Assembly (NCBI GenBank): GCA_030248065.1
Contig: JASAMV010001555.1
Coordinates: 1-64,000 of the forward strand
Reading direction: 5' to 3'
DNA from: Rhynchonema sp. JSB1_4
Taxonomy: Eukaryota; Nematoda; Chromadorea; Monhysterida; Xyalidae
DNA: 64,000 nt
This document shows positions 3,391-61,000 of this stretch, piece after piece. Positions within the stretch are counted from its first letter, which is position 1; the number at the start of each line of letters is the position of its first letter. The translations under genes and the position numbers were made by a program. Under the pieces are notes generated by a model. That model did not search any database. It was not told where the DNA came from and saw only the letters and a list, made by a program, of their open reading frames with translations.

Positions 3391-3799
<409 letters not shown>

Positions 3800-3800
3800 G

Positions 3801-28093: not shown

Positions 28094-31000
28094 GTTTGGC
28101 ACGCCATTTTAGCTTTTGTTTCGAGCTATTCTTCGTTGTGAGTATCTGTAATTGCAACAATAGCTGACTGCCGACGCGAGCTGCGCATATACTGCATGTG
28201 GTGCAAACGGTCAACATCAGTTATCTGATGTTTCACACGCTAATGACCAGGCAACCGTAATCCAGCTGTTTAATGTCGTTTCATAAATGAGCGGACCAAG
28301 TATTTTGAAAGAAAATTAAATATCCCAAAGCACTTCTCAAAATTCAAAATGACTCCAATTTCCAGATAATCCCAGCCCGGATGGCGACGGGTTTATGCCA
28401 CATGGTGATATGGTCGATGGATCTGACGACAATCTTGACAATAACCTTATGCCCACGTCCATGTCACAGCACACGGTCGATTCGGGTGCCACGGGGGGCC
28501 CTGAGCGCCCATCCGCAGCCACTATGGAATTGACCAGTCCGTCTGCGTCCCTCGTCACTGGAATGGTGTCGGTGAGTGTAGAAATTCGCTTTCATATTTT
28601 TGAGGATTCTGTTTTAGGATTCCGCTGCCGATCAAAGAATCGATCTAGAGTTGTTCAAGTCATTCTAACGTGAAACATCAATATTCTTGGGAGTGATAAA
28701 TTCTTTTTGAATTGAGCGGTCACAAAACGATGTCGCTTGGTAAATGAATTGAGGGACTTTATTATGTTTGTCGCAGAACTTTCCAGACGATCTTACTTGT
28801 TGCTGTATCTTCTTTGAACACTTTCTGTTTTTAGCCACAAGACGCCAACAACAACAAGGACTTGCTGGATTTCAAACTAGAAGCCCTTCTCAGACAGTGG
28901 CATCACAGTGCTGATATTCTCTTCACAATACATCCCATTGACGGCAGTCTGCTGGTCTGGTTAGTGACGGGGCCCTTTGAAGTGTTTTTCTTGGATGTGA
29001 CAAGCTTATCGTAGTATATCGATTTCCGTGAGAGTCTCTCGCCCAAATGCTAAGCAGTTCTCGTTCCATGTCGAATTGCAATTTGAGGTGGCAGCAGAGA
29101 ATGTTTTCAAAGTTCGCTATACATGTAAATGGAAGCGGTGGTGAATGTTCGTTGCCCGTGGACGTCATAATCCGACAAACAATAAAAATCCTTCCTCATT
29201 GCACATTTATGCGTGCAAAATCATTTGATATTCACTTCAATTCAGCCGCTGTAAGCGTGAAAAAAACAGAAAAGTGTGAAAAACTACAAATGCCTGATTT
29301 TCAAGGACACTCGACGGTCTGGACGAGACGTTCAAACAGGCGACGCTGTCGTTCTCATTCCGATTTCCGTCGGCATTCCCGATGACGGACGCGGTGTCGT
29401 TGTGTCACAATTTGGCCATGTTCAATCCACATCATCCCGTTTTTGTCGATCTGTTGCAGAGACATAATGGTTCGGCGAAATTGTTCTTTTGATATTTTGT
29501 TTCATTTTTTTTGTCCTGCGTGCAATTAAGGTGGTTTCTTTCGTTTTCTTTTCTCGTGGGCTCGATTAGAGTTGAGATGAAATCAGTATGATTCGAGAAC
29601 GGTACAATGTGCTCGCTTGGGCCAGGTTCTGCGTATTCATATTTCTGATTGGCTCAGCTTCTAATCAGCAAATTGCGTGCAACCAGCAGAAAATGTCGCC
29701 ACACTTCGTAGCACGATAGGTAACGTGTGTGGCAGAATCCAGTAGAACAACGTAGAGCAAGCAACGTTGCTCCTTGTTGATTGTTGACAAGGACCAATAA
29801 ATGGGCTCAAAATTAATTAACTTAAAAACAACAATTTGTTTGTCTGTTGATGTGGCCTGACGAAAACATAAGAAAAGAACAAAACAACCGTTTTCAGCAT
29901 CAGTCGCAGTGCTCAAACCGCCACCAACCAACATAATCTTCTTGCTAACCAATCACGAAAATGGCACCCTGAATTTGTGGCAATTGTCGGTGGACGAAAA
30001 GTCGAATTACACAAACATTCTCAACATTGCGCACAAATCGCGCATGTGTGGACACAGGTGGGCTGTTTTCTCTTTGTTTTAATTTGAAAAAAAGCAAGAG
30101 AAAATTCCACTGTCAGATTTCGAATCGATCGGGTTGTGTGCCACCCGGTTCTGCCATTGTTGCTCACGACAAGCCATCATAACTTGAGACAACCGTACGT
30201 TTGTTTGGCTTTTTTAAAAATTTTTTAAAGGGGGTTTGTGTGTAGTAAAAGGCAAACTACGCCAACACGAGCCCGATTTCGGAGCTGGTAGATCAGTGAA
30301 ACATTCACACGTGGCTGCTGATTTGGGAAACGTTACACGTTGTGGAGTACAACGTGGTGCATGAGGATTTCTCTTTCTTTGCGTTTTGCTAGTGCACCAA
30401 CTCCGAAATCGGGCTCGTGTTGGCGTAGTTTGTTTATACCATATCAAATTAATTCGCGGAAAACATGTCTCTTATCGATAGTGAGAAACATTTTGAGGGG
30501 AGTTTATGTTTTTACATGAAAAATAATTGCGAAAACCACAAACCACCTGTATCCGAACAGCAACTATTCGTCCGTTTGCAGCGGTCAACAGCCGGCAAAT
30601 GTGTGCTCTCTATCGCCGGACTTCAGTGAAAGTGAAATGATCATGTGGACAGTGAATCCAGTTGGACCGTTGTGTCATTCGGGCGGTGTGAGGGAGTTGG
30701 CCAGGATAAATAGTGCCGAAACGAGCGCCTTTGTCGATCTCGCTTGGGTACATTGCTTTGCTTGTTTTCGTCGTTATTGTTATTGTTGTGGGCTAGTTTT
30801 TGTTCCGACGACGGGCGCACAGGCAGCGATGTACGGTTGTGACGGTTTATAATGTCCTCGAGATTACACATTTTTCCCCCACACCTTACAATAACAGTAA
30901 ATAAACGCTCACGGAATCATATCAGTCAGATGCTCGCTCATGAGATGGGCATGAAAATGGTAACAGGACATGTGGGGGAATGGACAACACTCCGTTTACC

Positions 31001-34000
31001 CAGACTTTCATTCGGATGTGTTATCATCTGTCAGTCCGTAAGACCATTAAAATATATTGATTTTTTTCAAACATCGCGTCACAAAACTGAACTCCAAGCC
31101 TGCTTCCACGTTCCAGGTGCCGGCGATCCTCCCGAGTTCCACGCTCGGTTCGGTGTGTCATTCGCCGAGTTCGTGTTTCGTCGCCAGCGACGGAATGGCG
31201 TTGCGATTGTACCAGTCGGTGATCGATGCACGCGCGTTGTTGGCTGAAATGAACAGTGTCAAGATGAAACGGGTCGGTGTGGGGGTTGTGAGGGTGTCTT
31301 GTGTGCCTCATGTTTCCAACCAATTTTGGTGTAATTGATGTAAAATTAAAATTGAAGTGAATAGTGTGGATCATGGAACAGAGTTTGTTTGAACAGAGAA
31401 ACCCGCGACCGATCTATTTCATCCCAGCCGACAGGCACAGATTTAGAATTCTGCGTTTTTTTTAGCTATATGTAACACAGTTTCTGTGAGGTAAAATATA
31501 ATAGTTGAAGTGCGCAAGTTGTCTTGTTTTTGATCAAACTTGGAGCCAATAATGTTTCTCACACGTCATATACTTGGGGCGCACGTTCAAACTGAGCGAT
31601 AGTGGAGATGGTGGATCAATCCGAACAAAATCATGCCAAAACAAATAATAATCACTCAATCACGCACCATCGTGCAGGTGTCGTCGCGTCTATCCGGTTC
31701 GCACAGCAGCGCCGGCGTCGGCCACGACGATCGCGTGAACCACGTTCGGTCGTTGTTGATCGATTCGTTCAATGTGATCAGTTCACAATCGACTGCCCGA
31801 CCCGGCTGTATTCTTCAATTGGATTCGCTCGCTGATGCCACGCAGGTTTGGCCGGCGGCGGGAATTTGGTTGTCTAAGATCTTAGGAGTAATTCTGTTTG
31901 GTTTTTTGCTCCTTTTCCGAACAAATGTACTTGCACTGAAAGGGATGTTTCCGTTAGAATCCACCCCAGAAGTCAGATCACTCTGTAGAAATTGAAAATG
32001 CAAGTTGGATTAATCAACCATTAGGTTGATGCTTCATACGAGCATGACTACACAGATCTCAATACCTGCATTGCTGTACCCAGGATCTCCGAAACAGTGC
32101 TAACGATTTTTAAATTCATTTAAATTCTTACATTTCCATTTGTCAGGACTGGGGCAACATTGCATTCCTGCACGTGTTCCACGAACAAACGCTGTTGGGC
32201 AACCAGCAGCCACACACATCGCCAGCCAAACGATCCCGGTCACCGGAACCGGAACGACTAGACTCCGTTGTTGATCACTCGAAATCGACGACTTTCCATG
32301 AGGTGCGTGTTTGGTTTTTGTTATTTTTTCTGTTCTGGCGTGTGAAAATACAAGATTGTGTGATTGTGATGACTGCAGATATTCTATGTTGTGGTGCTCG
32401 AGAAACGACCGGACAGCGACGCCTTGCTGCACATGTGGAAACTTGTTATCGCCAGTCAACCGCCGTCGAGTTTGAATCCGAATGGTATTTTTGTCAGTTT
32501 CTCTTTTTTCCTTTTCATTGCGTGAGGGAGAAAATTATTATTGTTTATTTGCAGAGGATGCGCGAGCTTCTAGTCCCGAACTGAACGAGCTTGGATTCTA
32601 TCCATCGGCAACCAACCAACCGGCCACGGCAGCCAGATTATATGTGCAATCCGTGAAGGTGAAATTGGGATATGGCTAGAAATGTTTTGATAGTTTTATA
32701 TTGGCTTAGCTTATTGAGTAACAGTTGATATTGTGGCGCAATTAAACGCCGAGAAAATGACGTTTTCATTTATTGCAAAATTACAAATGACAGTTGATTT
32801 GCGGTGACCATATTACGTTGGTGCGTCAGTTTTTGACCTTCGCTCGAGATTTCGTTATTGTTTGCGACATTTGAGATCATGGTCAAATGTGCGCTCAAGG
32901 TTTTTCTGCTGAGTCGTGAAATGTTTCTGGCTGTGTGTTTAGCTGGTGGACAGTTGGCGTTGATCAAGCGTTAACTGACATCAATCCTTCAAAAACGGTT
33001 AAAATTTCGAATAAAAATGCAAGAATTCTAGTAAAAGTCAGCAAAAAACAACGTCTTTCGTTTAGTGATATTGAGCGAACATCCATAACAACGTACTGTC
33101 TCTCACTCTCAAAAATACCATCCAAATAAGTACATCAAACGAAAATAGCAATCTTTTATTCATTGTTGCAGGTGTACAGCAAAGCACTGACCCTGCCAAA
33201 TGGTGTGATGGTGCAAACCGCTGCGGCGTCTGCTGGTCATCTACCGTCATCGAGTTTGTATCCGGCGTGCAGTGCACCGTATGTTATGGTGACTGGATGC
33301 AGTGACGACACTGTCAGGTGACTGGGTTATTATTTGACATCTACTGTGTCCAAGCTTGGAATCTGTATGTTTGGATTTGTTAGAAAATTTAAGAAATGAA
33401 CATGATTTTGCCTTCATGAAGAATGGGAACGATTGTAAGATTCCTGATTGATAATGTTTCACTGTCTCTGTAAACATTCGGCGGATAATCTGCCAAGCAG
33501 TCGATGTAGGACATTTTGTTCGTTTTTTACGAAAACTAAACTACCAAACAGATGAGTCACCACCACCGGAATCATTTGCATCATGAACCAAATTGTCGTC
33601 GCTGAATCGCGCAAACTGTCCATTCCAAATTTTCATGTGACAGATTCTGGCGCTGTCGTCACACGGGTGTTGGTGCATATGAATGGTCGGAATGGAGAAT
33701 GATTAGTGAATCGATACCGAGTGGCGTTGAGATGGAAGGTGGGGGGATTGATCGGTTTGATTCATTTATTGTCCACAATCGGTGGTTGTGAACAATTTTT
33801 TTGGAAAATATTGTGCCAGTCGCCCTTAGTTGAAATGGACTGTTGGCCTGACGCTCGGTCACTGTTGAAATTGTCTTAAATTATCTGTACGAATCGCAAA
33901 TGTTTGTGCTGCAACTGGTCGTAAGTAGCAACGGATTATTGTTTTTGAACTATTAACAAACGTGAGAACGATGTGTGTAAAACAATCGAAGCACAAACGT

Positions 34001-37000
34001 TGATCGATAATTTCATTGATTCCATTGCAGGCAGCATCTTCGCAGTGAGCAGTGCGTGTACGACCAGGTGGGCGTGCGCCTATAAGCCAATGTCACAAAG
34101 TGGGCACGCATTTGGACAGGCAAGATTGGCGAATCAGAAATTGGCGCTACAGGTCTGTTTTTTTGCCTTTCGTATTTTTGAATTTATCTTCAATTATTAG
34201 TTTGCAGTGGAATATAGTGCATTCGAGTGGATGTCTTTTGACGATGGAAGTGTTTTTTTTGTTCTTTGGGTAATAAATAGTGTTGGTTGACGCTTGGCAA
34301 GATAGCTTTTGATTGCAGTTTCCAGCAGGAAGCTCTTCGAACACTGGGATCATATAATTTTTTCTAATAGTGTGACATACTGCAAAATATTCAGTCGATT
34401 CCGAGCGTAGATGCGGACTCGGTGAATTTTCTACTCCGGGTAAGAATTTCGGCGACGAAATTTCTTCAAAATATTTTTTATGCTCGATGTTTTATGATTT
34501 CCCTGGTGCGGTGTCGCTTCAAAATAATCAACCAATTTTCTTCCCAACTAACCAAAAAAGGTCTTTATTTTCCGCCTACTTTTGTGCTATTTTATGAAGT
34601 CATTTTTTGATAAAATTATCGTTTTTCTTGTTTGCCCCATTTCAATCAGATTTTCATGCCATATCTTTGTGTATCGCTTGTGTATTGGCGGTATCGCGGT
34701 TTATCATGCTGCTGGTTATGTTTCAGCAAATGTGCAGTTATTTGTTTCGCAATCCTCAAGATCTCTCGACATTCACTGTTCGAAAAATTTAAAAAAAATA
34801 CCGAATTAAAGTCAAGTGAAAATTGCAGGTTTGCGTCTATGAGTGCGAATCGACCGGCGGTATTGAGTGGACTATGGAAGATACGTTGGACGTACATCAG
34901 CCTGTCGCTCAGGTAAGCACTGTGCTCCAAAAATTTCAGGATAAAATATGCGAAATTCGTTGTTGATTTTTTTCGCCTTGTTTTGATTTTAATTAATAAA
35001 GTTCAAATGCTGCAGGAAAGTATCGACGAGACCGCAATGATTCAGGAGTTCGATTTCCACGATACGCACTCGCCTGTCAACGATATGCTCTTGAACATGC
35101 AGGTTACCGAGATCGATTGGGGTTTTTGCGCTTTGGCTGTTTTTTTCACAAACGTATGCAGAACGGAATCATCCAGATGGCCGGCTGGGTTATGTTTCAC
35201 GCGCAGATGACCTTTGTTGTTGACAATTCCGTTTTTTGATAAACTCATTCACCCCTCCACGAGAAAACCATATCAACCCCAATATTATTGTTGCAGCAAG
35301 TGCCAAAATACAACCGACATCTCGGGGCCGGTCGTGTGTTGCTGGACAGGATCGCGTCGATTCCCCGCCTCGGCACGCAGAATATGCGCAGAGTGGTGGG
35401 TTGGATGTTTTGATCTAAAGCTAATGAACCACAGTTTGTTTGTCTCTCGTTCGTGCATGAGTGAGACAAAATGTTTTGAACACTGATTATCAGTCAGATG
35501 AAAGGTGTATTGTGTGATGCGATGGGTTTCGACCGACAGCTACGTTGAGAAAAGCAGGCTCAAATATAAGCTCATATATGTTGCGCAAATATAAGCGAGC
35601 GGTTAAAAATGTGCCCGACAGTTCCGTTCTTTTGTGCAGTGTATCGGATCACATTGGACAAATACTGGAAGGTGACGCAAAAACAAGCGAGCGCGTTTTT
35701 TATTCAATCCAATCAACAATTATTATTTACAGGTGAGCGACCACGCATTGCGTCAACAAGCGTTCACACACACAAGCATGGTGGTGCATTTGGATTGGAT
35801 ATCGACCGAAGATGGCAGTCACGTGTTGACGGTATGTTGGGTTGAGAAAGTGGGGTTGATCGATGGATTGGATTGGATCAGGAACCTCGCACTGAGTCGT
35901 TTGCAAAAGAAGCGGAACTGTGAATTTAAATGGATCACGAGCATCGTGGACAATGTTTCGGTGATGTTTCAAGCGCGAATAACCTTGGAACGAAAACGCT
36001 CAGCAGAAATGCGCGAGCACTCCTGATAAAATGCACAACAAATCACAATAGGAAGTGTCAAATTATGCGTTATGCAACAATTTCTTTCAATGGAGTTCGG
36101 CTGTTTGCATGTCGGACTGACTTTCATATTTCGTTTTCCTGGCCAACAGTCAGTTCAGTTGTGGCATTTCATGGTTTCACTGTAGACGACCTAAGCAAGC
36201 AAACAATCAGCAGTTGTATCCGTGATCCTTCTCTCACCTTGGCGCTTTTTGTAGCTTTTATTTGCTGTGGTTTTGCTATACCCAGTGTTGTAACTATTTC
36301 TATCGCCGTAATTTTCGCACCTGGTCTTGTAACTGTGCTTCTATCACTAACTTTCTGCATGGTTTTATGCGTCATTGAGAGCAACAAAACAAACAAAACA
36401 AAGCAGTTGTATTCAGTTCAAACGGATTTTTGTGAAAACAATGGAAATTAGGCGTGCAAAGGTTAATGCGGCATTCTTGCAACCTACTAGATGCATGTGT
36501 CGCGTTATATTTCATATTTTTGCTCATTTACCATTTGGACCAATTCGTCGGCCCGAGTTCACAGGTGATGTTTCACGCGAGAATGACCTGGTTCCAGTCT
36601 AGTTCATATTCGTTTCCATACCACTCACTTTGAGCTAATAACTCAGCACAATGGTATCGTATTATATTTGTTTAGATAACTGTTCCACATCCACAGGTCG
36701 GTGTCGGCGCGCACATCTACCTGTACACACAAGTTTGCCAGGACGTGGCCCAGCAGAACGTGACAATTATGAAAGAGGCTGAAACCGGACCATCGCAAGT
36801 ATCAACCAAATCAAAACGACCCTTGAAACGTCAGGCAAGCAGCATGGCACCCGCGCAGGTCAAACCAACCAAATGGGTCTGTGTCAGATGCATTGAACTC
36901 AAATCGGTGCGTTCGTGTTTTTGATAGTTTTTTTAAAATTGATAGATTTGTAATAATAATTTAAATCACGTTGTTTGGGTTTTTGTCGTTTTTCTCCTAA

Positions 37001-40000
37001 TTTATGTATTTTGTCTTGAAGAGCATGCCACGGTTAATCATACCGGGCGCGCAAGAAGAAGACGAAGTAAGTATCTGCCATTCTTTTGTGATGCAGTGCT
37101 GTTTTTATGTTTGCTGTTGTGGTGACTGTTTTCCATAGTTGCACTTTTGCGATTTTTATTCTTCACGTGTGTAAGACCCAAGTGGTCAGGATTTGGTTTT
37201 CGTATCAATATGAAAATGAGCAAGACCTTCGTATCAATATGAAAACTGAGCAAGACCCCAGGCCCTGACTCACGCCACGCACATTTATATTGTGTTCAAA
37301 CTTATTGCAAACACTTAACCATCAGAGGCGCACGCATTTGAGTTGGAAGCGGAGAGTGTTTCTGGTATGACTCACTTCTCTTTGTCATGGTACAATTATT
37401 TGAATGTTTGGTGATTGGGGACGCACTCGGCATGGTCTAACCCAGCATGTTTTACTTCTCCGTTCTGTAGAATAGGGTTAGAAGCAGTGGTGTCGTTGGG
37501 GGGGGGAGCGGGTTACCCCCCTGGTATGGGGTATGGGAAATCGGCCGGGGGTATGGGGTATGGGAAATTTTTCACTTTTGGAACAAGCACCCCTAAGAAA
37601 TGACTTTTTGACCCCGAGAAGTACCAAAATTGACCATTTTTCGTCCAAAAATGTCAAAAATCGCTTACTACCGCAAGAAAACTCTGTTTTAAGCACTTTT
37701 TAGACCAATTTTGGCACTGTTAGAAGATTTTTGGGGTCATTTTTTTCAAAACCCCCACCCTCGGGTATGGGAAATTTTTGAGTTTTTGGAAAACCCCCCC
37801 CCCTGGTATGGGAAATTTTTGATTTTTGGGGGTATGTATGGGAAATTTCCCGAAAATTGGGCTGGGTATGGGAAAATTTCGATTTCTCAACGACACCACT
37901 GGTTAGAAGTCGGGGGGGGGGTACCCGACAGCCGAGACACCCGACATCTAGTTTTTGAAAAAAAACCCGACACCAGTTTTGGACCAAAAACAGGCAAATT
38001 TTTGCTCATTCGCGTCATTAGTGCTTTTTTGGCTCAAGTTACTGAATTCAAGTCTTTTCACACGAAATAAACACCAAAATAATACATTCTGCGTCTTCTG
38101 AAACATTTGGTTCGAAGAAAATTTTCTCTCAGAATTTTCTCTCTCAGCAAAACATGTTTTGAACCGTAAGTGTCGGGGGTCGGCTGTCGGGTACCAAAAA
38201 ACTCGACACCCTCCATCTGGAGGCACCCTACACCTGACACCTACACTTTTTTGGCACCCGACACCCCACATCTCTCTAATTATAAAAATGGAAAGCCTAC
38301 TGTGGAACATCAGCAGTTGGTTGTGTGCGTACGCAGCAGTACGCAACCTGTATGTAGCCGGCTATTAGTTTGGGTATTCAAAAAAAAACTGTCGATTCTG
38401 CTCAGCCGAACCAAACCGGACAGGACCGATCACAAAGCTGTATTTTGAGCGTTTACTTTGCAGCACTCTCTTGTCCCTGCTCACTTTGCAAATCTTTCTG
38501 TGGCACACGTGAAATATATTTTGGCCACTGGACACAACAGTGTGGTGCTATATTTTGATGATTTTCATCGTATAAATTTCATAACTCGCGCGGTCCCTGC
38601 TTCTGGCATTCGGGCGGCGTTGTTTGCAATGTTTTACATAATTACTGTTTCTATGTAGCACAGATGAAACATCGCAATAATCACATAACAATCAAATATT
38701 GCAGGCCGACGGTCTACCGCCAAAACCGATCATGTTATCGTGGGTGCGTGACGGAGTGCTGGTGATTGGCATGGAATCCGAGATGAGGGTGTACAATCAG
38801 TGGAATATTGGTGTGTTTCGGGGCTTGATTTGTCCCACGCATTTTGCAATGTGGCCTGGTGTAACACTTGTCTCTTTTTTCTTCGGTATCGTGTAAAACT
38901 GTTGTTAAAATTTGATAACAGGGATTCTGAGTTCTGCATTCTGCACGATTACAAATAATGATCTACATTGTGTATGTTTTGTTTTGTGGAAATTTCACCA
39001 AGCTCCCACTGTCAGTCAACAACAAATCCGTCCACAGTTTTGTGCTGATGTTTCAAGGTAGAATAACCATAGGGGGTTGAAAGTCCTAGTTAATATTCTA
39101 CTGACATATCAAAAAAATTCACAAGCAAAATTCCCCAAAAACATGATTATTTGTCCGCTACCAGGCATGCCAGCAGCCACGCACACGGTGCACCCGATTT
39201 CTTCGGCTGCTGGTCGTCTGACGAATTCGCCTGCTGCTACTGCACTCAAGGCGCCACCCAATGCGGCTCACAGAACACCGACGGGACTGACTGCGCCACA
39301 TACGGTTAGTTGGTTGGGGGTAGGAGGTGGAAAGATTTGTTGGATGAGGGGATGAGGTATGAGACGTTTTGTTATGTCTGTGCTTGTAAAGTTGAGATGC
39401 AACATCACTTTTTGAGCATAGACTTTCTCTGATAGTGTGGATATGTCGTTGAAATGCGTTTTAGTGCACTGATGAAGGTGTTCCTCCAATGCACATAACA
39501 CTCCATGAACGTTTTTCCCAGCTTGCGTTTTCTAGCAGAATAAAGACACGTTTGATGAACAACGTTGTAGTGCTGTGCAGTAAATTTCGAGCATTGTGTA
39601 GTTCACTGAAGATCAGTGGTGTCGTTGGGAAATCAAAAAGTCAGGATACCGGATACCCAAAATCCAAAATTTTCGGATACCGGATACCCAAAATGAAAAA
39701 TCTCGGATACCAGGGGGGCTGCTCCCTAAAATAAAAAATCTCGGATACCCAGGGGGTTGTTCAAAAAAGGTCAATTTTTATAGAGGAAAATCGAGCAAAA
39801 TCGGCGTTGAAACCGTAAAAAATGGTCATTTCTGGGGTTATGCTTGCGCGAGCAACCGATTTTGAGCATTTTGGAGGTAAAAATGGGCGATTTTAACGGT
39901 TTCCGGAAGAATTTTAGGGTAGGATACCCCTGGACAAAAAGTCAGGATACCGGATCGGATACCCCTGGGTGAAAAAATCAAGATACCGGATACCGGATAC

Positions 40001-43000: not shown

Positions 43001-46000
43001 CGTCGTCAGTGGATGTTTTGAAAATATCTGCATTGAGCATCAGCAGTCCAAACTGAGATTTGTGGTAACGAACACGCTTGAAGGATGGGGATTTGTTATT
43101 GGTCTGCATTCCGTTGCGCAAAGATTCGATTCAGATCATGGTGGTGTATGACCAGAGGTTGATGTTTCATCCGAGAACCAGCCTGTGAAGTTGCTGAAGT
43201 GAATCGATCTCCATCGATGGCACAAAACAAAACACAAAACCAATTATCCAAACTTCATGTTGTGTTCAAATGTTCAAACGAAATAATAATTCATCAAAAA
43301 TGTTGTGGCCGAATGAGTTCCAGATCACGAACGTCGTCGCGCAGCAGCTCGGTTGGTGGCGTTCGACCGAATACAATGTTTCTGGCCAAACACACACGAC
43401 AATTGACGCAGTATTTGACACATTTACAATTGCCCGGTGGGTGTTTGTTGAATTGGTGTTTTCCTTTATTGCTGCGGCCGCAAAGCACATGAAATCAAGC
43501 TGAATGACCGCGGCTCTTGTTTTGTCACACGAGTGGAACATTTCCACTCATGGTAGCAAGTGTTTTTCTTCTTCAGGCATGTCCAGCGTCGATCAAATGC
43601 ACCTGTTGGCACTGGCTGACACACTTAGTCACTTTTCGTCGGACGCGATGGACAAACTGGCTCAGGCGAATGCTGGTAAATTTTTAGTGTCAACTTTTTT
43701 GAGAATATTGCACGCGAGGTTGTTGTCATTGCTGAGTGTAACTGGCCCAGGTGTCTCAAAACACCGATGAAGCCTAAAATGGAGGACTTGCCGATGTTCA
43801 AGTTCCAAAACTTTCTAGCTCGAGACAAACGCTTCCAAATTGCCACCATAGTCCTTTCCACTCGCCCAACACAGGTCTGCGTCAGAAAGCCTCCGATCAC
43901 GTGATCACGTCGCAAACGGGCAGCGGTTACGCAACGAGCGGGACGGGCATTGAGTCGGTGGACGATTGTGGACTGCGATTCTTGATGGCCATGAAACAGC
44001 ACGAGTATTTGTTGCGATGTCTGCCGATTGCGCAGCGAAAGGCTGTGGCTAAGGTTGGATCTGTGGGGCCTTGGGGGCAATGAAGAATTTCTGTACTTTT
44101 GTACGCACATGTACTACATGCCCAACCTTATTATTCGGTCTAATTAATTATATTGAATGGTGTTGTTCGAAACTCACTTTACGTGATTAAAATTTTTCGT
44201 TAAATTTGAATAAATTTAGTTCGGTCGGGCTGAACGTTTTGCGCAGTTCATCAATTATTTTTAAGGTTTTCATCTGATGCTTCCGACCAAAACAGATTCG
44301 TGCTCAATTGCAAATTTACCTGACAAAACCAAAACATTTCCAAATCCCAATATTTTCCACTTGCAGGAGGGCCTGTCTACATCACACATTATCTGGGCAT
44401 TCCATTCTGAGACCGAAGCTGAGCTATTCAACTGCATACCATCAGTACAAAAGGGCACACCCAATTGGGCTGATCTCAGATCGCTCGGTGTCGCTTGGTA
44501 GGTAAACTTTTTTGGATTTGATATTTCTTGTTGTTTGTTGCATATTTAGATGCGTGTGCGTGGTGCATATCGAAAAGCGCGACGTTAAGGAACTTCCTAT
44601 TTTCTGTCATGCACACCGAAATGCGACACGCTGAATAGATGAAAGTTTATTCATGATTCGAAAAAGAAAAGTCTGCCATCTAGTGCCGTGAACAGAGAAA
44701 GAATGTTTTGCTCAATTCTGATATATTCGTTTCCTGCTCTGGCACGTCGGTTCTGTCTGTACACCGTAATCGAAAACCGAAAAAATTCGTGGTAGATACT
44801 CAACAGTGTCTTACTTATCAGATAATCCCTGATGTCTACCTCCTGTCCGTGTCTCCACTGTTGCCGTTCCAAATTCCTTATGCGTCACTTCAGGTGGGTC
44901 AACAATCAATCAACGTTGCGTATTTGCATCGAGAAGATCGCCAAGTCCGCCTTCCAAACGCGCAACGATCCGATGGACGCCGCTATATTCTATCTGGCGA
45001 TGCGCAAGAAGAACGTGCTCACACATTTGTTCAAGTTGGTTAGCTTTTTGTGTGTTTTTCGTGTGTATTATTTTAGTTATGTCGATAAATGGTTTGGTTG
45101 AATCATGGGTCGTCTTGTGCAACCATGTTTATGTTGATGTTTCGGCCGACATATAAGTGTTAATGGGCATTGGGCGCTGTAGTTAGAGATTATTTTCAGG
45201 ACGTGTGTGAAACTGAAATTTTGAAATTTACGTGGTGAGAAAATAGATTTCAGTGAGGAAATGCGCGGCGCGAATTCATTCGACAAATACAAATTGCTGT
45301 GCTGGGTGATTCATTTTTATTTCATTTTACACATTCTCGTGGAAACAGTATTGGTCGTTGTTGATTGATTGGCATGGTGTTCACGATGTTAAAGGGCTCG
45401 GGACATAACCGAAGGAAGGATAGCAGGAAAATTTTTCCCCCCCGGGAAACCTTCCCACCCCCCCCACAAAATTTACCCCCTTCTCTCTCTCTCTTCTTTT
45501 CAAAAAAACTATTAAAAACCCAAAACCCAAAAAAAACAAAAAAAAAAAAAAACAAACCCCCCCAAACCATTTAGGGTGCGAAACGTTCCAAAAATCGGCC
45601 TTATTTTTCGATAACACAAGTTTGTCCCTAAATTTTGAGGTCACGCTTAGTGCTACGGAAATAAGAGCGCAATGGGGAAATAGAGCATCGTCGAAAATAC
45701 CAGAAAATAAGGTTTTTAAATTTTTTAACTCATGTCTAGCTCCGTGACAGGCCTAAAAATCCATTAAATTGCCGCTAAATTAGGTGGTTATATTCATCGC
45801 CAGAATTGTGACAGATAAAGGCCACAGATTGCATCGGATTCGAAACAAAAAATTGAGAGAAACGTCTGGTTTAACAACCTATTAAGGTCCGAAGACCCTA
45901 AGGTCTACAGATCTCTCTGGGTAGCCCTACTTATCTGAATATGACGTTCAGCTATAAATGCTTATTGTTAACAGCTATTGTAAATGTGACAGCACCAAAC

Positions 46001-49000
46001 AATGTATCTCGGGATTAGCTTTCGAACGATATATAACAAGCCCCAATAAGTTATTACGCTTGAGGGCAGAGGCTAAAAAATTGCTTTTTTGACGATTCTG
46101 GAATGAACCGTCACGTCACCATGTGCGATTTCGGAATTTTGACCGTTTCTTGCCCACAGTAAGAGATAGTATGGGCATGTTATATATCGTTCGATAGCTA
46201 CGTTGAAGCTACATCGTTTGAAGCTATTAAATGTGCAATAATCTTTAACAGTAACGACTTACAGCCAAATATCTTATTCAGGCTGGCATGGCTGCAGCAG
46301 CCGGACCATGGAGTTTGAAGTTTTGAAACTTGTCTAGATTGTTGGACTGTGCGCTTATCTGACTTTCTCGTTTCCAATGCAATGCAATGCGTGGCTTATT
46401 TACATCACATTTCCATCAATGAATGCAACTACGTAGTTTAGGGGCAATTTTTAGGTCTTTTTTGGCCCGTCACGCCCCTATCAAAGTGTTTCCACGTTTA
46501 AAAACCTTATTTTCTGGTACTTTCGACAATGCTCTGTTTTTCTGTTGTATTTTCATTTCTGCAACGCAAAGCACGGCCTCAAAATTTAGGGATAAACTTG
46601 TGTCCTCGAAAAATATGGCCGATTTTTGGAATGTTTCGCACCCTCACCGAGGGAAACAATGGTTTGAGCGACTGAAGTTGTCATGATAAATTATCCAGTA
46701 GTTGTTGTAATCCCATCCACGTGTTACTCGACCTTCAACTCATTTGGGGTTTCTGCACCGGTCGTTTCAAGTTGTGAGAAAATTCACTTTTCTCTGGAAC
46801 GAAAAGTCCCTCTACCAAGAGATAGCGAATCTCTAAGGAGCTGAACATTTGTGCGTGATATGTGCTGTCACAGTGCTTTCCAGCGATGTATAACACTGTG
46901 CTCTGCTGCCCTTCCTTCGGTTGTGTCCCGAGCCCTTTAATATCGTTGAGATATGCTTTAATTTCCGCATATGGTATGATCCGAAACAAGCACAATTTGG
47001 CATATCCATATGTTCTGTTGTAAGCGTGCATGCACTATTGCAGATCGATTCAAAACTCGAAAATGGCCGAGTTCTTTGCCGAGAACTTCGCGGAAGAGAA
47101 ATGGCGCAAAGCTGCTCTTAAGAATGCGTTTGTGCTGATGAGCAAGCAGCGATTCGAACATGCCGCCGCGTTCTTTCTGTTGGGCGGGTCGTTGAAAGAT
47201 GCTATTCAGGTTTGTGGCGTATTTGGTTCTGTTTTTACCTGAAGATTACCCGAATCCATCACTCGGTGGGCAAAATTGAGGGTAGTCATGGTTGCGTGAA
47301 ACATAAGCTGAAATATCGGCATTGTTGGTGCACTGGTTTCTTTACAGAAATATCTGCAGTGCAGAGCAAATGCATATCTCGTTGAAAGTATTTTCTGGGC
47401 AATGAAACTGATGGAAATTATCCATGAATTGCGAATGACTGATTTATATAATCCTCGCAAAGGTGTTTTTGCACGAATCCAGCAATAAACTAGGCACGTA
47501 TTGTCGTTTCTGTCCGTCCAAAATGCTTGACGTGTTTTGCCATTTGCAGACCTGCATCACCAATCTGAACGACTTGCAACTGGCGATCGTGATTGTTCGC
47601 CTGTACGAAACGGACAGCGAGCAGCAGAGCCTGATTCTCAAGGAACTGCTGTGTCGTCACGTGCTGAGCATCGAGCCCGACCGATTGAACGAGCCGGATC
47701 TGACCGATTTGACCGACGATTTGCCGCCGAATGCGTGTCGCGACCCGTTCATTAGGAGCATGACATATTGGCTGTTGAAGGACTATGCCCGTGCGGCTGC
47801 CACCTTGTTGGATCAGGTTGGGAATCTGTGGATTGGACGGTTGTTTTTTGATTGGACGGGTTTTTTTATTTTGGAGATTCTGGCCTCCTGGACCGTCGAT
47901 GATCGGGGTGAGGTCAGTGATTTGATCAGTACACTGACGGTGATACTGTTAGAGCGCGCCGGACATGGAATTGTTGCGGCATGGCGAATAATGTTTTCAA
48001 AATCTTGGCAGCCTTGCTTCATGTTTCACTTTAGATAGACTACCCAACTAACCTATGATGTTGTAATCCATGTTGTGCTTACGTGATACTGAAACGTGAA
48101 ATGCTCAATAAGTTCAACAAAAGCCATCATCAAAATGGCATTCTGACAGTCACTTCAATAATGCAGGTGCACGTGGGCACGCATCCATCGGACGCAAGTG
48201 AGCACGTGCCCCTCTCACATGTGTTCTACTTCTATTCGTACCTGCGTTCGCACCCCCTGGTCGTTCGCCAGCGTCTGTCGGCCGAAGGTATTCAAATTGG
48301 CGCCACTGAGAAATTCTTGCAAGTCGCCAAACTAATGGAACGACGCGTCACGCCCGCCGAGAGACGGCTGTATTTCATGGCTGCGTCGGCGCATATTAAG
48401 GTTGATTGGCACACGTTTGGCAATCAGTTTTGGCGTCGTTTTTTTGGAAAAAATTTGTTCTTTTGCAATAAATTTCAGGGACATTTTTGATGTTTTTACT
48501 TGCCGTTCGCAATTTTGTTTACTACGTGTAATTAATTAGAAGTTGTTATTGCACCAGTACTTTGCGCATCGAATCTCATCGAATATATATTGGTCGCACA
48601 ATGACCATATAAGAATTCATCAAAATCAATCCTGATTTTCACGTTCAATCACTCTTAACTACTGTGCTATTTGTGATTCTCACAAAACATTTTCAGCTGA
48701 AAATAATCTAGCAGATCAACCACGTTGCCGTAGGACTGAAACATTCTCTTTACTACGTGTTTTGTGTGTGATCGCGCAACGCAACGTCATTGCCCCGTCA
48801 CTAGCCTGCTTTGCGATTCAGGAAAAAAATTTGACCAATTCTTATAAAGTCATTGTGCGACCAATACAAGGGCATTTCAGATTAAGGCCATTCCCGTGTC
48901 AAACATCAGCTGTTGTCTGACTGTTTTTCGAGTGTCCTACACACCAATGTATCCGAGATGGGACGTTTATTCGCCTTTGATGATTATTCGCGTTTCTTCG

Positions 49001-52000
49001 TTCTCTGGGTGGCTTTGGCTTAGAATTTCTTTCAGGCTCAGGGTTAGGCTCAGGATCCAGCCTGATAGACCTGTCCAACCCATGACAATAAAATCATCGG
49101 AAAATGTCTGCATGACCAAAGAGAAAACGCGAGTAAAAGACCAGGCGAATAAACGTCCGCGATTCAATGTATCCACCGCAATTTGTTTATTGATAATTAT
49201 TTCCATTTATAATCAATACCACAGCAATTTATATGTTGATAATGTTTCCGATTTCCCGCCTAGAACTTTATGAAAATCGGTTCAAATCTACGTTCAATCA
49301 TCACGTTCAGGCCGGTTGTGCAATGCTCGGTCTGGATGTGCTGTCACGTCTGCCCAAGTCGCTTTGTCTCACGCTACCCAAATCCGCGGCGCTGCGCTCG
49401 AACGCACCATCTGATGCGCCAACACCATCGCACAAACCATCAATCCAGGTGAGGTGTTCGTGGGGGCTAATAGTTTAGTCATCAACGTAAGTCGCCGACG
49501 GTGGTCGTCAACGCGACCAGGACGAACTAGCCCTAAATAAGCGCAAGGAAGGACTGCGTTGGCCAAATAAATATGAGCCGTGTTGGCGTGGCTTTATTAA
49601 TTTTATCATAATATGCATCAGTTTGTAGTACATATACATATTTGTTGTGTTGTGCATAAAAACCATGATTGAGTTCATGATCGTCAAGAAGACGCATGAT
49701 CAATGTTATGGTAAATTATACTTTTGAATTACGATTATTCGCTACCAATCAATCAAGCAATGGATAATCACAGATCACGACCCCGGTGGAGCTGGAGACG
49801 ATCGTTAGTACCGGCGAAATGGACTGGTCAGCACCGATCACGAACGGAGAAGTGAAACCACGTTAGTTGCCATCTTGCTCAGCTCTCAGCTGTCGAGAAA
49901 TTTGGCCTGAAATTTCAATTTTTATATTTTTGTCGTTAGGAAGACCGACTGAAAACTGTTTGACACATTTGAAACTCACACCTGACATTTCCACAGGGCG
50001 ACCCCAGTTCGACGAACCGCTGGAATTGAAATGGTCGGATGGTGAGGATACGGCGAGTAGTGGTGATGAGGGTGGACTTGTCATCGGGGGACTGAAATCC
50101 AAGGACGAACCCATCACTAATGGTTGGCACGGGGTGGGGGTGTGTTTTGGCGCGAACTTTGCTTTTTTACCACGTGACTTTTAATTGAGAATGTAAAGAA
50201 GTTTGCGCTCAGTTGTGATTTCCAACCGGCTGTACAACGTGCATACTGGGCGGAATCGTACGTATTGAATCATAGAAAAATGTCAAGCAGTCATATCTGA
50301 CCGAGGCAGATAAATTGATGATTATGTTGTCGTGGCTCACCAGAGCTTCCATGTCCACGACAAACATCCACAATCAAAGATTCTTATCAGGTCACGTGCA
50401 ACCATCGCCAGTGACGAGCGATACAGGAGCGCGACGGGGCTCGCTTCTCGATGATCTAGCCGCCGCCGATGTCAATCTGCCCACTGATGTGTTGGCGCAA
50501 CAGATGAAATTCGTGTGCTGCTTGAAAATGTTCCTCGAAGTTGGTGGTTTTTTTGGCACTGTTTCGTTGTTGTGGGTGTTTTATGAATTGTTTTGGTGTT
50601 TTCATCATCCGCTAATTCAAGCAACGACTGCCCATTATGAATCTCTAGCGTAGTCATTCTCGCGTGAAACACTCAGTTAAATATAACTGGAAGTGGACAG
50701 CTGTTCTGCCTGTCGTTCTCATTGTCATGAACAAAAAGTGGTATGTAGTCTGTCTATTATCCTGTGTTATTGTTGTTGCAAAAGTACCTTGATTTGTTTC
50801 ACGGGAGACTTTTGTTTTCGGGGGGAATTCAAAAGTACCTTGCATTTCCGTTATCGAAGCAGGCACAAGCCCACACACTTTTAACCCCGCAGCCTGTTGT
50901 TTGATGTTTCGTCCTAGCTGTGTGTGTGTCAGCTTTGTAGCCACGTTATGGATGAGCACAAGAGTATGAGGAAGAAGTTATTAGCGCGTGAGCCCATTTG
51001 GGCCTAGTCATTCTCGCGTGAAACATCAATCTTGCGTTTCGCAGAAATGCAGCACGCAATGACCCACATGTGTGTCTTACGCCCAGATCTGTGATGTTAT
51101 TTATTACATCAAATCTAAACATAATTCCATCATCCATCGATAGGAACTAGCTACATTGGCGAGTGGCGCTGAAGTGGAGTCGGGCCGATTGCGCAGCCAG
51201 TTGTATGTTTGGCTCGAGCACGAAGTCGGTGTGTTGCGCAGGGTTTGTGACTACAATTCGGCGATGGGACACGGCGACGAGGTGGATAGTGATGATATGG
51301 ATGGTCGGTTGGATGGCTGGGAACGGTTGAGCAATGTTGTTTTTAATTTTCTTTGCTTCATGTTGAAACGGGCCTATATTCGATGACTTTGTCGTGTTTC
51401 GCACACTCGAAATAAAAAGAGGGGAAGAAGATGTGAATGCCAGTCGTTCTACGGATATGAATGGTCTGTGACACTGAACTAACGGGAATTTTGACATCTG
51501 TATCATAACACTTTTCTAATCTTGTTCGTTAATTAACGTTAATAAACGGAAGATTTTTCAGCCGGCCAACTGATCGATCCATCTACAGTTGATTCTGACC
51601 ACGTGGCCACGCGCAGACCGACATTGCACGAAGCTATACAGAGTGACCGAGATGATTTGCACGCCAGGTAGAGTTGCGCGTTTGTTATCATTTTCCATCT
51701 GCGTACCACTTTGTATCGAAAACTGACAATTTCGGTCGTAGTGAGGATGAGGAACACTAATCACATTCACATCTCGGTATTGATCGGCTATCGAGCGCAG
51801 AGCAGAGGATTACAGCGGTCACCACAGCTAAACCGCTAAATTGAAACTAATTCTGACACGACAATCATTATACAGACTTGAATCAGCGGAACGTCGTCGT
51901 CGCTGGCTGTGGCGCAATCAACAGTTGTTGCGTACACTGGCAGCGTACTGTGGATTGCACGGCTCGCAGTCGGTCGGATTGGCCAGTGCTCGCATGGAGG

Positions 52001-55000
52001 TGTTGTTGTTGCTGTTGGAGTTGCAGCAGGACAGCGCCGTGCAGAACTGCAGACTGAATGGTGCGTGGCTTGGATGGGTTGGGGTTGTGCTGGCTGCTGG
52101 TGGGGGACGAACTTGGTGCCTAGTGATTGACAGCAACTTGGCGCAGTTAGCGCATGCTTGTATGGCCAAAGAAGCAAGGAAAGTTATTCGTGATATGCAA
52201 TTCTTGCGTGTGAACCCAATGTCAAATGACAACTGCTGCAACACGATTTGATCACAACACGCTGTTTTTGCACACATCAGATTGGTGATGTTTCACACAC
52301 GAATGACCACCCTCCTTCCGAATACTGCGCTGTTACGTGTTGATATCCCATTTCTGAACAAACACGCATAACAAAAACAAATCAGATGCGACCAAACATG
52401 TCCTCTTTATCATACAAATCACCGAAATGATGTCCATTCACAGCCCCGTTGCCCGTTCAATCGAGTTTCCCCCTGCTGTCGGCATCAGTGGCCTCGTTTC
52501 GCACGTCGATTAGTGACCCGATTCGATATCTACAAAGTCAGGCATACGACCTGCTCACATCTATCGCCAACATGAACAACGTGCCAACAATGCAGGGATC
52601 GTTGGCTCAGGTGCGTAAAGATTGGATATGGGATTTTGGATCAGAATGGAAATGGATTTTTGGAGATTCGCCTTTGCGTTGATTTCGCGTGGAATCCGAC
52701 CGATTGGGCTGATGTTTCACGCTAGAGTGACTTCCTTTTTTTTTGCGTTCCCACATTTTGATGTAATACTTGTTATCGTCTTAAGCTCGAAATAGCTCGA
52801 AATATAGTAAAGCAATGAACAGTTCTTCAATTCGTTTTCAGGATTACTACCTTTGTTTAGGTTTTCCTATTCTACCAACTGAGTCAGTGTCTGTCGGCGT
52901 GTGTCTACGAATCACTCGCAGAATTGAATGATGCGGAGAAACTGAGGTGAGATCCCCCAATCTTTTTTCTTTTTTTGAACTTCGGTTAGAATTTCGATGC
53001 GAATTTTTATGAGCGATAGGTTCAGGCATTACATTTTTCTAAAGCGGTATGTTGCTCTGCAGTTATGGATCTCTGAAAATGTTTCGACTGTTTTTATTGC
53101 TGATGTTTCACGCTAGAATGACCAAGGCTCGACTTTAATTTCATTCAATTGATGATTCATTGCTAAACGAAAGCAACACAAACTATGCTAATGTAATAAC
53201 CAGTGGTTTTTTAAGACAGTTTGCCAGAGAAAATCGACCACCTGACACACGAGTTTGAGGCAAAATAAGCGATTTTGAGTTTTAGGCGTGAAATTATGGC
53301 ACTTGGTGAGTTACTTACGCTCACCAATTTTTTCGATCCAGTTCGGCTCATTTCCGCACTTATGGGCATTTTTGTGATTTTCACCTTCGCACTCATTTAC
53401 ACTCTGACCACAAAAATTGAAATCGCCATAACTTGAGCTAGCGTGAACCGTTTTACAAACTTTAAACAGTGTTGTAATTCTGTGGCCAGTGGAAAGCTCT
53501 TGGCGCCGCATGACCTTAATTGCAACACAGTGTGGCCCAAAAAGTAAGTTTCAAAAAAACAATTTTTTTCACTGCATGCATAAACTTGCGCGAAAAAAAG
53601 TCCCCGTCAGAATAGTGGTGGCAAGAAATTTGGACACAACCATCTTGTTCATAAGGCATTTCTCTACAACTTTCAAAAAGGTACTTGGGTGCTCAAATGA
53701 ATCGCTAAAAAGATACAGGCAAATGAAGTCACACACCCAGCAGCATGCAGAGCTGGTCACACGGAGACAGGGAAACAGGCTGAAAGTGATGCACTGTTGT
53801 ACGTGTGCCGTGTGTGTGCAGCATAAGTATGTTGGGGTCATTTACGTACATTTTAAAGTGTTTTACCATGTGGCACAACTGCATTGCTCATAGCGTGGCT
53901 GAAAAGTTCCTGCCCTTCGCTAAAGACCCAGCTTTCTTCCCTTTGTGATAAATGGCGGTCGGGTCCGTTCGAATCATTGTCATTGATACAGTAGCAGTGG
54001 TATTAATGCGTGTGCAGCATAGCGTGTGCTCATTATATAGTGTGGCCAAAAGAAAATTCCCGATGTTAAAGCTTGTTACGTTTTAAGTTTGTTAATGTTG
54101 CAAAAAGATCTTTCTTGTATGTAATTTAGCGAGTTTGGGCTCTGCGGCGGCAGCGGGAACTTATAACGCGCTCTGTTTGGAGACCAACAGTTACGCAAAC
54201 GGACTAGCTTGCATAATATAAAGAACATAGAGCATCACAGTGTGTCTAAAAAGAAAATTGTAATTGTCTGAGATGGTGGGAGCGATATATGTATGCGACA
54301 CGATTAACAAATTTGCATAATAATTGTTGATTTAGCTTTCCTCTGCGTGTCTCTTACCCAACTATAAAACGCTCGCTGCCATATGATACCTTGCTGCTAA
54401 ATAACATATTTTCAATTTCGTGCTTGTATGATTTGGCTATGCACATGCAGTTGTTCGTTTTTCGTATTATTTGGACACGGTATTAAAGTACTGGGGCTGT
54501 TTATTTTGCACGTGCTCTGTTCAACGAGGCAATTGATTGAAGATATTTCATATTTTTTCTGTAGCTAACCACATTTTAGATTTGTTCATTTTATTCACTT
54601 CAATTGCACAAAACCGGAAACTGGCGCATAAGAATGTCATATAGTAAAAAGTTTGCCGATTGTCTTAACATTGCACTGCGAACAGAGTGAAATGAAACAC
54701 ACATGCCACTCTTTTTTATGAATGAGTATAATGTCAAGAATCGATATGTTGTGCCATAAAAGGTTCAAAATGTGGGTAAATCATGGTTATAAGTAGAATC
54801 ACACAGGCATTAGTGCAGGCAGGACAACTACGGCAAATTTCTGATCGTTGGAATGGATGTCTACGCTGTAGCCGATCTCGATGGTCACGATGGGAGGTAC
54901 GAGCTGCTAATGCACACGCCGGTGACTGGACTGAAGAAGACTGGAAACAGATTTGGTGGCACCGGCGCAATGTACAAGTACGTTGTGACTAATTTCAATG

Positions 55001-58000: not shown

Positions 58001-61000
58001 ATCAAATTTGTTAAAATGCACTTTTTTCTCGCAGGCTGGCCGCGCATCAGATCGACTCGCGAATGTTCGCGGTGATTTTTGGCGGTGGGGGACAGGTACA
58101 GCTCGCGACAACGACGACCGCTGGCGGGCCGATACCGCCGCCGAGTGAGTTTGTGCGAATTACTGTTGTTGTTGGTGATTGAACGGCTAAAAACACCATG
58201 TGCTTGTGCGGTCTGCTTGCCGGGGAACTTGCGTTTGGACAAATAAGCGACCACAAGGGAACTTTTGGCGATGATGCTTCACTCGTGAATAACCTTTGTG
58301 TAGATTGCGCGTTTCAGTAATCCTGACGACGAAGACTTTATTTGTGCAAAATTCACATAATGAAAAAAGATCAGTTTTACGTGGTTGGAATTTCGCAGGA
58401 CCACCCCCACCACCGTCCCGTACCAATTCCACAGCACCACAAAATGTTTCACGCGATTCGAGTCCGTTCTCCGCCGATCGACTCGCGGCCGCTGTTGATC
58501 CCGCGTCCCTAAGGGCGAAATTCCACGCCAAACTGTTTGCGCCGAGCGGGGGAGGTTGGTGGGGTTGGCATTGGCAATGGTGTTTATTTTCTCTTTTTCG
58601 TTGTGTATTATGCTGGGGTTGTAGAAGCTGTACTCCCTGCCCATGCAAAAAGTCAGTCCAAATCCCTCAATCTTGTAATCGCACAGGTTCTGTTAGTTAG
58701 ACACCAAGTATGTATTCTAAGCCAACAGTTCCAGCCGGCATATTGTTGGCAAATTGGACGCGGTATCCAATGAACGGATTGGGCTCAAACTTGCTAAATG
58801 AATGTTTATCTTCGATAATATCTTCCTTGCATTGCAGGTGCACCCACGTCCGGTGTTGCGGGCGCGACTCAGCCCACCGGCCGGTCACGTGCGTCATCGC
58901 AGTATAACGACCAATCAGCGTCGAGCTCCGCCCAATCGATAATGAAATGGGTGCCGCCGAAACGCAGTGCTGTCGCGTATTTGACGGCCAAGGTTGGCAA
59001 ATCAGAGATTGGGTCATTGATTCACTGAATTTTGCGGTGTTGCGTTGCCATTGTGTTTGGTGATGTTTCACGTGTGAATGGCTTGATGTGAGAGGACTCT
59101 TGCATTGGTTCTGCTTCTCATTTCTCTTTTTCGAAACGCAAGAAAATAATAATGTTTTCCAGAAAATTGTTCTGAGCGAACGATTTCCAAAGAATCAGTG
59201 ATCGTACTTTTTAAGAAAGCCAGCGCAATACGCTTTACACTGCTACTGCTCGAACAGGCGGCGCAAATTCTGCTTCTTTTTCACGTCTGAAAATCTGACT
59301 CCATTGAAAATTTGGTTATTCCATTGGAACTAAAACTATGCAGATCATGTCGGAGTGACATGTTTTCGAGTCCGCAAAGGGCCCCCGTTAAGTCAGAAAG
59401 TAACGTTCGATGGCGAGATCAATGTTCAGCTGATGTTTCACGCCCGCATGACTTGCATTGTTGTTGTCAGGCGACTGCTAACAAGCTTGCATAGGTCTTT
59501 CGTGAAATGAATAATAAGATGTTCAAACTTAATCTATAATGAACAAATAAAAATCAATGATGGAAATATTACTAAATCATACAATTCGACAAACGCACGT
59601 TCATATCTTCAGCCATCGATCGACTGCGGTGCACAGTTGGGCATCGAATACGACAGCGACGAAGCGTTCAGTGAAGAGTCGGAGGGAGAGGAGGAGGAGT
59701 TCGATGATCCATTGGCCAATAATGATGCGTTGCGGAGGAAGGAGGAGGCAGTGGTCAAGGTTGGCTGATTGATTCTTGTGTTGTGCTATATTGGTCTGGT
59801 GATGATGACCGGAACTGTGGATGGATGGAGTGTAAATTAACGAATTTCCCGTTTTGTGCATTTCGTGTATTGTTGTACCCACCTGGGTTTCAGGTTCCGG
59901 CGAACCTTACTCTTTGATTATTACAGTTTTTGTGAGCTGATGGGTGAATTTGGCCTGTATTTTTGCTTAACCCATGAGGCCTCGTTGCTAATAACGCGGA
60001 AGTGATATTTCTGGCGAAGGTCATATGGCGCTGAAACATCAGTCTTCCGCTGTCCCGCAGGCCGCTGACTCTGTCAAACCGCTGTTGTTGTTGTCAGATA
60101 CGTTTCTTCTTGAAATTCGCGCTTTTTCATCTCATTTATGCCGTGATAAACTAAAACCATCAATTCAAAAGTCGATAATTATGTCACACGCAACTGATTC
60201 TGAACGTTTTCTCTTTGCACGTGTTAGTGTTCCCGGTGTCATCCAGGCTTGTGCCGTATGATGTTTCACGCGCACATGACCTTCTGTAAGAACTGCCATG
60301 TCCCCCAATATCACTTCTCGAGAAGCAGAAATTTTACAAAAAAGACAGCTGATTGGCCTTACCGAACAATTTCTTGATAGGAACATCTCGATCCCGAATC
60401 GTACGCGTGGAAGATTCTCCGTCTGGTGCTCGTTCGTCAGGTGCTGCACAAAATGCATCAATTCCTCAATTTGTGTGGACTGCAGGACAACGGTCGGGTG
60501 ACGAAAGATTCTCTCTTGTTTTTTTGTAGATTCATTGGTCGTTGTTTCGTTGGTTGGCATTTTTTTCGTTTTTCGAAATTTACAAAACTCCATCGATTTC
60601 AGAATTGGCACAGCGTTCGCCACTGCTGCATTCGATATTGAGCACGCTTGACAATTGGCAGAGAACGTTGGAACTGGATCTGGAGCGGCATGAGGATGGA
60701 TGTCCGGTAGGTTGTGGACTAATTTGTGCTGTTTTTTGTTTCCGATGAAGGGGAGGGGAAGGACTGCTGTAGCACAATAAAGTGATGGTAGTTCCATTTT
60801 ACTGTGAGAGCAGCTGGTCACCACATACATAACTTACATAATATCGTGGAAACTCCTTTTAGCGTTTTCCATCCGGGATTGGCGTCAAACCCTGTGTTTC
60901 CCCGACCACCACTAATCTTTCGGTCGTTGTCGTTTTCCAGGTTGGCTTCCTGCCGCACACACACGTCGACACGACCACCGGTCCGTCGCTGCACAAATAC

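Follow-up and report, generated by a model that had tools for sequence, protein, structure and literature searches.

Intronic copies of a small nuclear RNA promoter element in a nematode DMXL gene are probable piRNA promoters

Why should one short motif recur, on both strands, along the introns of a single protein-coding gene? The question is raised by the 64,000-nucleotide stretch of DNA analysed here (hereafter the window), in which the gene for DMXL (rabconnectin-3 alpha / RAVE protein 1) holds many copies of a 23-bp element, TKATGTTTCACGCGNGAATGACY. The original prediction had suggested that these copies may be promoters of motif-dependent PIWI-interacting RNAs (piRNAs), with a longer motif than the known one. 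Our findings support this suggestion: the copies are most probably P-type motif-dependent piRNA promoters built on a nearly complete U1-type small nuclear RNA (snRNA) promoter element. The evidence consists of the identity of the element, a YRNT sequence at a fixed distance from it, an A-rich tract further downstream and PIWI exons in the same genome, and from these we infer the piRNA output.

We scanned the window with a matrix trained on 92 sites, all from outside the window, against an order-2 Markov background. At 8 bits or more there were 22 sites (16 forward, 6 reverse) versus 0.06 expected per 64 kb, which bears out the recurrence in both orientations; at 6 bits or more there were 23 (17 forward, 6 reverse), with none in positions 1–25,000. 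The 13 forward and 5 reverse copies initially picked out by eye are thus of the right size when compared by count only, while of ten weaker copies named alongside them nine fall below 6 bits, the exception being the copy near 48017. A shorter query, the 14-mer TGATGTTTCACGCG, gave 35 window matches at up to three mismatches versus 7.97 ± 2.93 in shuffled sequence, and 0 of 100 shuffles reached 35. Genome-wide (204 Mb, 5747 contigs), the full element had 770 matches at up to three mismatches, versus 5 for a control pattern read backwards. The window holds 16 non-redundant sites at this threshold, where an even spread of the 770 would place ~0.24, and the DMXL gene is therefore dense in motif copies.

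Sites outside the window were a non-random subset of the 770, being the first-listed places and mostly with 0–1 mismatch. The 142 non-snRNA matches from the window and the fetched loci came to 129 distinct sites and, after a 60% identity filter, to 123. We also used a hand-curated set of 121 sites, from which five 3-mismatch sites (L003, L072, L076, L099, L120) and, as copies, 7 of 60 newer sites had been removed, and to which five 4-mismatch sites had been added. Neither of the downstream signals described below was used in choosing sites. Among the 121, information upstream of the motif was confined to positions −2 (G, 0.73 bits) and −1 (C, 0.62 bits); every position from −70 to −3 had at most 0.19 bits, although a half-element at variable spacing would escape detection. 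The extra half of the element, GAATGACC, lies 3′ of GTTTC, at about −31 to −24 relative to the predicted start.

The first half alone, TGATGTTTCACGCG, matched 17,755 genomic positions at up to two mismatches versus 1,681 for controls, an approximately tenfold excess. However, most of its exact copies lack both GAATGACC and the downstream signals, which makes the 14-mer by itself a poor proxy for the element: 63 of the 88 exact copies read differ from GAATGACC plus spacer at 5 or more positions, and among these the 56 non-redundant (first-half-only) sites lack an A-rich tract, and YRNT forms no clear peak in them. Several first-half-only copies share repeat-like surroundings (loci L001–L008, L045–L124).

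What is the 23-bp element? We took snRNA genes from Rfam searches (U1, U2, U5 and U6) and compared up to 90 upstream bases of each with TGATGTTTCACGCGNGAATGACC. At −44/−45, five of the ten U1 matches carry the element with 2–3 mismatches, a sixth with 5 and a seventh with 7, and all eight U5 matches carry it at 3–6 mismatches, at −45/−46. Among the U2 matches above the cut-off (8 of 9), it was found at 4 mismatches in one, at 7 in two (−47) and at 7–8 in five (−48). For U6 (nine matches, five of them above the cut-off and one of the nine without upstream sequence), the best matches in the upstream flanks had 10–12 mismatches, which is chance level, and four U6 genes (L018–L021) carry a TGATGCTACAGG stretch and a TATA-like box in place of the element. 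The 23-bp motif is the RNA polymerase II (Pol II) snRNA proximal sequence element (PSE) of this genome, so that the comparison with the species' own snRNA element, proposed with the original prediction, gave a match. The complex SNAPc binds snRNA proximal sequence elements, and is presumed to bind the intronic elements. The U2 genes themselves fall into two classes by upstream sequence (L009–L013 versus L014–L016), and five U2 copies have a conserved 90-bp flank in common, with a weaker element.

Two signals follow the motif. First, counted from the motif start, a YRNT has its Y within +44 to +47 at 98 of the 123 non-redundant sites, as compared to 15–51 of 123 in 17 other 4-nucleotide (nt) windows; an earlier count on 120 of the hand-curated sites, which also served for the A-tract profiles, had given 98/120. 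The Y peaks at +45 and +46 (33 sites each), so that transcription is predicted to begin at +46/+47; the T of YRNT then falls at +48/+49, usually 44–45 nt beyond the start of GTTTC at +4. Within the window, YRNT stands there at 15 of the 16 sites with three mismatches or fewer and at 21 of the 22 matrix sites. By comparison, only 21 of 56 first-half-only sites have it, versus 98/120 full-motif sites (Fisher p = 1.2e-8). A fixed downstream start, originally suggested at about 35–45 nt, is thus predicted: the YRNT initiator keeps a set distance, usually 45–46 nt from the motif start. Second, a strand-specific A-rich tract ~30 nt long begins on the non-template strand ~24 nt past the predicted start (~+70). 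The A fraction is 0.48–0.52 at +70 to +84, with T low, and is near background by ~+115; first-half-only controls have 0.25–0.29 over this range. Averaged over +70 to +98, A is 0.46 at window sites, 0.48 at other sites and 0.27 at first-half-only controls (T: 0.23, 0.19 and 0.27, respectively), and by mismatch class 0, 1, 2 and 3 it is 0.53, 0.46, 0.49 and 0.41. The tract lies where a ~28-nt precursor would end and appears pausing-like, with a composition rich in A alone rather than in A and T.

The sites in the window and their host gene are listed below, with the predicted transcription start site (TSS), the matrix score, the YRNT offset (position of Y) and the A fraction at +70 to +98, both counted from the motif start.

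28226–28248, + strand: PSE-like putative piRNA promoter motif; predicted TSS 28272; 30.3 bits; YRNT +45; A 0.50
28658–28680, − strand: PSE-like putative piRNA promoter motif; predicted TSS 28633; 29.1 bits; YRNT +46; A 0.50
32027–32049, + strand: PSE-like putative piRNA promoter motif; predicted TSS 32073; 22.5 bits; YRNT +45; A 0.36
35190–35212, + strand: PSE-like putative piRNA promoter motif; predicted TSS 35238; 26.1 bits; YRNT +47; A 0.46
35962–35984, + strand: PSE-like motif without YRNT at +44 to +47; 29.9 bits; A 0.43
36566–36588, + strand: PSE-like putative piRNA promoter motif, exact consensus (0 mismatches); predicted TSS 36612; 43.7 bits; A 0.36
39046–39068, + strand: PSE-like putative piRNA promoter motif; predicted TSS 39092; 19.7 bits; YRNT +45; A 0.54
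43160–43182, + strand: PSE-like putative piRNA promoter motif; predicted TSS 43206; 14.2 bits; YRNT +45; A 0.54
47284–47306, − strand: PSE-like putative piRNA promoter motif; predicted TSS 47260; 29.3 bits; YRNT +45; A 0.57; adjoining exon ends at ~47212
48019–48041, + strand: weak PSE-like motif; predicted TSS 48065; 10.3 bits; YRNT +45; A 0.39
48886–48908, − strand: PSE-like putative piRNA promoter motif; predicted TSS 48862; 21.5 bits; YRNT +45; A only 0.25
50652–50674, − strand: PSE-like putative piRNA promoter motif; predicted TSS 50629; 21.2 bits; YRNT +44; A 0.61
51006–51028, − strand: PSE-like putative piRNA promoter motif, exact consensus (0 mismatches); predicted TSS 50982; 43.6 bits; YRNT +45; A only 0.29
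52286–52308, + strand: PSE-like putative piRNA promoter motif; predicted TSS 52332; 33.5 bits; YRNT +45; A 0.61
52710–52732, + strand: PSE-like putative piRNA promoter motif; predicted TSS 52755; 30.0 bits; YRNT +44; A 0.39
53101–53123, + strand: PSE-like putative piRNA promoter motif; predicted TSS 53147; 38.9 bits; YRNT +45; A 0.50
58272–58294, + strand: PSE-like putative piRNA promoter motif; predicted TSS 58319; 23.1 bits; YRNT +46; A 0.50
59061–59083, + strand: PSE-like putative piRNA promoter motif; predicted TSS 59107; 30.9 bits; YRNT +45; A 0.46
59431–59453, + strand: PSE-like putative piRNA promoter motif; predicted TSS 59477; 35.0 bits; YRNT +45; A 0.46
60019–60041, − strand: weak PSE-like motif, inside an open reading frame whose status is uncertain; predicted TSS 59995; 9.7 bits; YRNT +45; A 0.46
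60259–60281, + strand: PSE-like putative piRNA promoter motif; predicted TSS 60307; 23.3 bits; YRNT +47; A 0.46
63130–63152, + strand: weak PSE-like motif; predicted TSS 63177; 11.1 bits; YRNT +46; A 0.50
24788–63833, + strand: DMXL host gene, homologous exon blocks (tblastn, 14 DMXL proteins)

All 22 sites, which span 28.2–63.2 kb, lie within the span of DMXL homology, the one gene examined, and every motif core lies clear of the supported exon blocks, as had been claimed for the copies placed by eye. Only two alignments, both of one protein and both running through a stop, reach into site 47284–47306, while the remaining 12 of the 14 there finish by 47215, and the open frame around the weak site 60019–60041 is without homolog support. 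The same tblastn search gave an additional DMXL exon block at 22649–22744; Pfam Rav1p_C and WD40 scored under their cut-offs on single exons.

The presence of copies on both strands rules out a splicing signal, in agreement with the original argument. Both orientations might also be expected of a DNA-level element that starts no transcript itself, such as a replication, insulator or transcription-factor site, and the strand bias of 16 to 6 (n = 22) is indeed not significant (p = 0.052). Nonetheless, that the motif is the U1 promoter element and has directional signals downstream indicates a transcription start, and we regard such an element as very unlikely.

The flanking sequences of the copies are mutually unrelated at 123 of the 129 distinct sites under the 60% identity filter. 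The motif is thus not part of a larger repeat, as first proposed, and a single transposon family is ruled out. A few loci have been recently copied, some of them inverted within one contig, as might be expected if the copies were remnants of a transposon or dispersed snRNA pseudogenes. However, the unrelated flanks, the maintained YRNT spacing and the lack of an snRNA body downstream of the non-snRNA motif sites largely contradict this explanation, which we find scarcely credible. Somewhat less remote, though still improbable, is that the copies are true SNAPc promoters making another short or longer non-coding RNA (snRNA-like, stem-bulge RNA (sbRNA)-like or enhancer-type), since any small Pol II RNA could follow an snRNA promoter element. 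Against it, the downstream sequences, equally unrelated, contain no common RNA, a search of the window against Rfam gave no family at its cut-off, and a YRNT initiator is followed by an A-rich tract ~24 nt past the start.

The recently copied loci allow a comparison of substitutions along the piRNA promoters that we favor. Eight pairs, picked by eye after seeing the data, showed 2 substitutions in 200 positions in the motif and its two upstream bases, 20/735 further upstream, 10/175 at +23 to +44, 16/203 in the predicted precursor (+45 to +70), 13/220 at +71 to +98 and 16/394 beyond. The predicted precursor differs from upstream sequence (Fisher p = 0.0016) and the motif from the rest (p = 0.02), for pairs that are partly dependent (one locus is in two pairs and one duplicated segment supplies two) and of which three carry most of the divergence signal. 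Gap columns were excluded; an ungapped reading of one pair gives 2 motif differences. A conserved motif and a faster-changing predicted precursor in copied loci are thus a lead. Near-identical inverted locus copies 2–12 kb apart were seen within each of several contigs (C339, C540, C4523, C506, C1115), which suggests palindromes or misjoined alleles; baseline divergence over 3 kb in two duplicated segments was 3.1% and 4.1%.

Under the piRNA-promoter reading, each copy would act on its own as a Pol II promoter and give rise to a single short capped RNA, in all likelihood a 21U-type piRNA precursor. SNAPc would bind the element, and Pol II would initiate at the R of YRNT and pause or terminate in the A-rich tract. 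The precursor would then shed two 5′ bases to leave a 5′ U and be loaded on a PIWI protein, with the DMXL host gene possibly providing open, transcribed chromatin; hosts of P-type loci are genes that are active in the germline and carry H3K36me3.

Does the genome encode such a protein? Pfam Piwi (PF02171) had 54 exon matches, among them matches of the same layout on three contigs (C1663, C4595 and C3368), of which the exons on the first two were read. Three joined exons from C1663 scored 106 bits with Siwi versus at most 50 bits with eukaryotic argonautes, whereas the joined exons of a control gene on C4344 scored 259 bits with AGO2 and 114 with PIWI. Judged by these scores, the genome encodes PIWI-clade exons, and the search for a PRG-1/Piwi gene advised earlier was therefore productive. 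Some further Piwi-family loci resemble nematode WAGOs; a database search with one WAGO-like fragment gave 82 candidates, none of which passed.

The DMXL gene also places the host organism. Pieces of it, picked by eye, matched nematodes in the 10 top-ranking named proteins, with two unnamed proteins interspersed, ahead of the first insect. In a DMXL tree that sampled neither clade I, clade II nor Plectus, the window sequence grouped with nematodes (100/100), beside one unnamed protein (93/87), while clades III, IV and V united without it (99/97). By this phylogeny, the host is a nematode outside clades III–V. Plectids have a 22-nt SL1 leader; here, a search for it at up to two mismatches found no match. 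The wider reading, towards which we lean slightly, is that PIWI persists in an early-branching non-Plectus nematode, from a part of the tree reported to have lost piRNAs, and that many hundreds of copies of its nearly complete U1 promoter element, many of them intronic, serve there to make piRNAs. According to Sarkies et al. 2015 (PMC4323106), the sampled members of clades I–IV are without PIWI.

Several observations weigh against our interpretation. Two of the ten U1 matches have a different upstream sequence and one has the first half only, 25 of the 123 sites are without YRNT at the expected place, and the expected A-richness is missing at two strong sites of the window (48908: 0.25; 51028: 0.29). 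We sought a sharp word or 3′ box in the A-rich tract, and none was present. A tree of the PIWI fragment gave a long branch without a firm position, with mites nearest by path. Finally, the extra motif of Plectus, as described by Beltran et al. 2019 (PMC6436959), lies 5′ of GTTTC, whereas here GAATGACC is 3′ and nothing informative was found 5′.

If the wider reading is true, co-option of snRNA promoters for piRNAs would be wider and more varied than known, with the extra half on the downstream side. The findings constitute sequence evidence, from a nematode outside clades III–V, that piRNA promoters are reused snRNA promoters. If the host is not a Plectus, they would change where motif-dependent piRNAs are thought to survive in the nematode tree; if it were one, the finding would largely be known already.

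Outside the DMXL gene, the window also has a facing pair, CGATGTTGCGCGCG / TGATGTTTCA, in two copies ~4.2 kb apart (8752–8793 and 12921–12962). A long GT/CA microsatellite of ~400 bp lies at 3361–3933.

How do these loci compare with known piRNA systems? Among the papers listed by our search, which covered subscription titles thinly, none beyond Beltran et al. dealt with piRNA promoters of early-branching nematodes. According to that study, nematode piRNA motifs derive from the SNAPc site, and those of Plectus are almost identical to its snRNA motifs; transcription starts two bases upstream of where the mature piRNA begins, and the motif peaks 42 nt from the 21U, the counting base not being stated. 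Its P-type loci sit within introns of active genes and have a pausing signal of low melting temperature where the precursor ends. The loci described here appear to fit this picture, including the distance from GTTTC to the predicted 21U. As described there, the piRNA loci of Plectus sambesii and P. murrayi resemble the present ones in their nearly identical piRNA and snRNA motifs, GTTTC core, lack of a TATA box at Pol II loci, non-clustered loci, presence of Piwi and position outside clades III–V. The P-type loci of Pristionchus pacificus are likewise dispersed on both strands in gene introns, and the strong pausing signal that marks the 3′ end of their precursors may have a counterpart in the A-rich tract; however, most clade V loci have retained no more of the SNAPc motif than its GTTTC half, whereas here nearly the whole snRNA element is present. 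The Ruby-motif loci of C. elegans share GTTTC ~42 nt upstream of the 21U, the YRNT initiator and a short capped precursor (predicted here), but they form clusters on chromosome IV, within H3K27me3 chromatin, and have half the element. The nematode snRNA proximal sequence element, as found at U1, U2 and U5 here, agrees in sequence and in start distance with the intronic loci, which differ in that no snRNA follows them.

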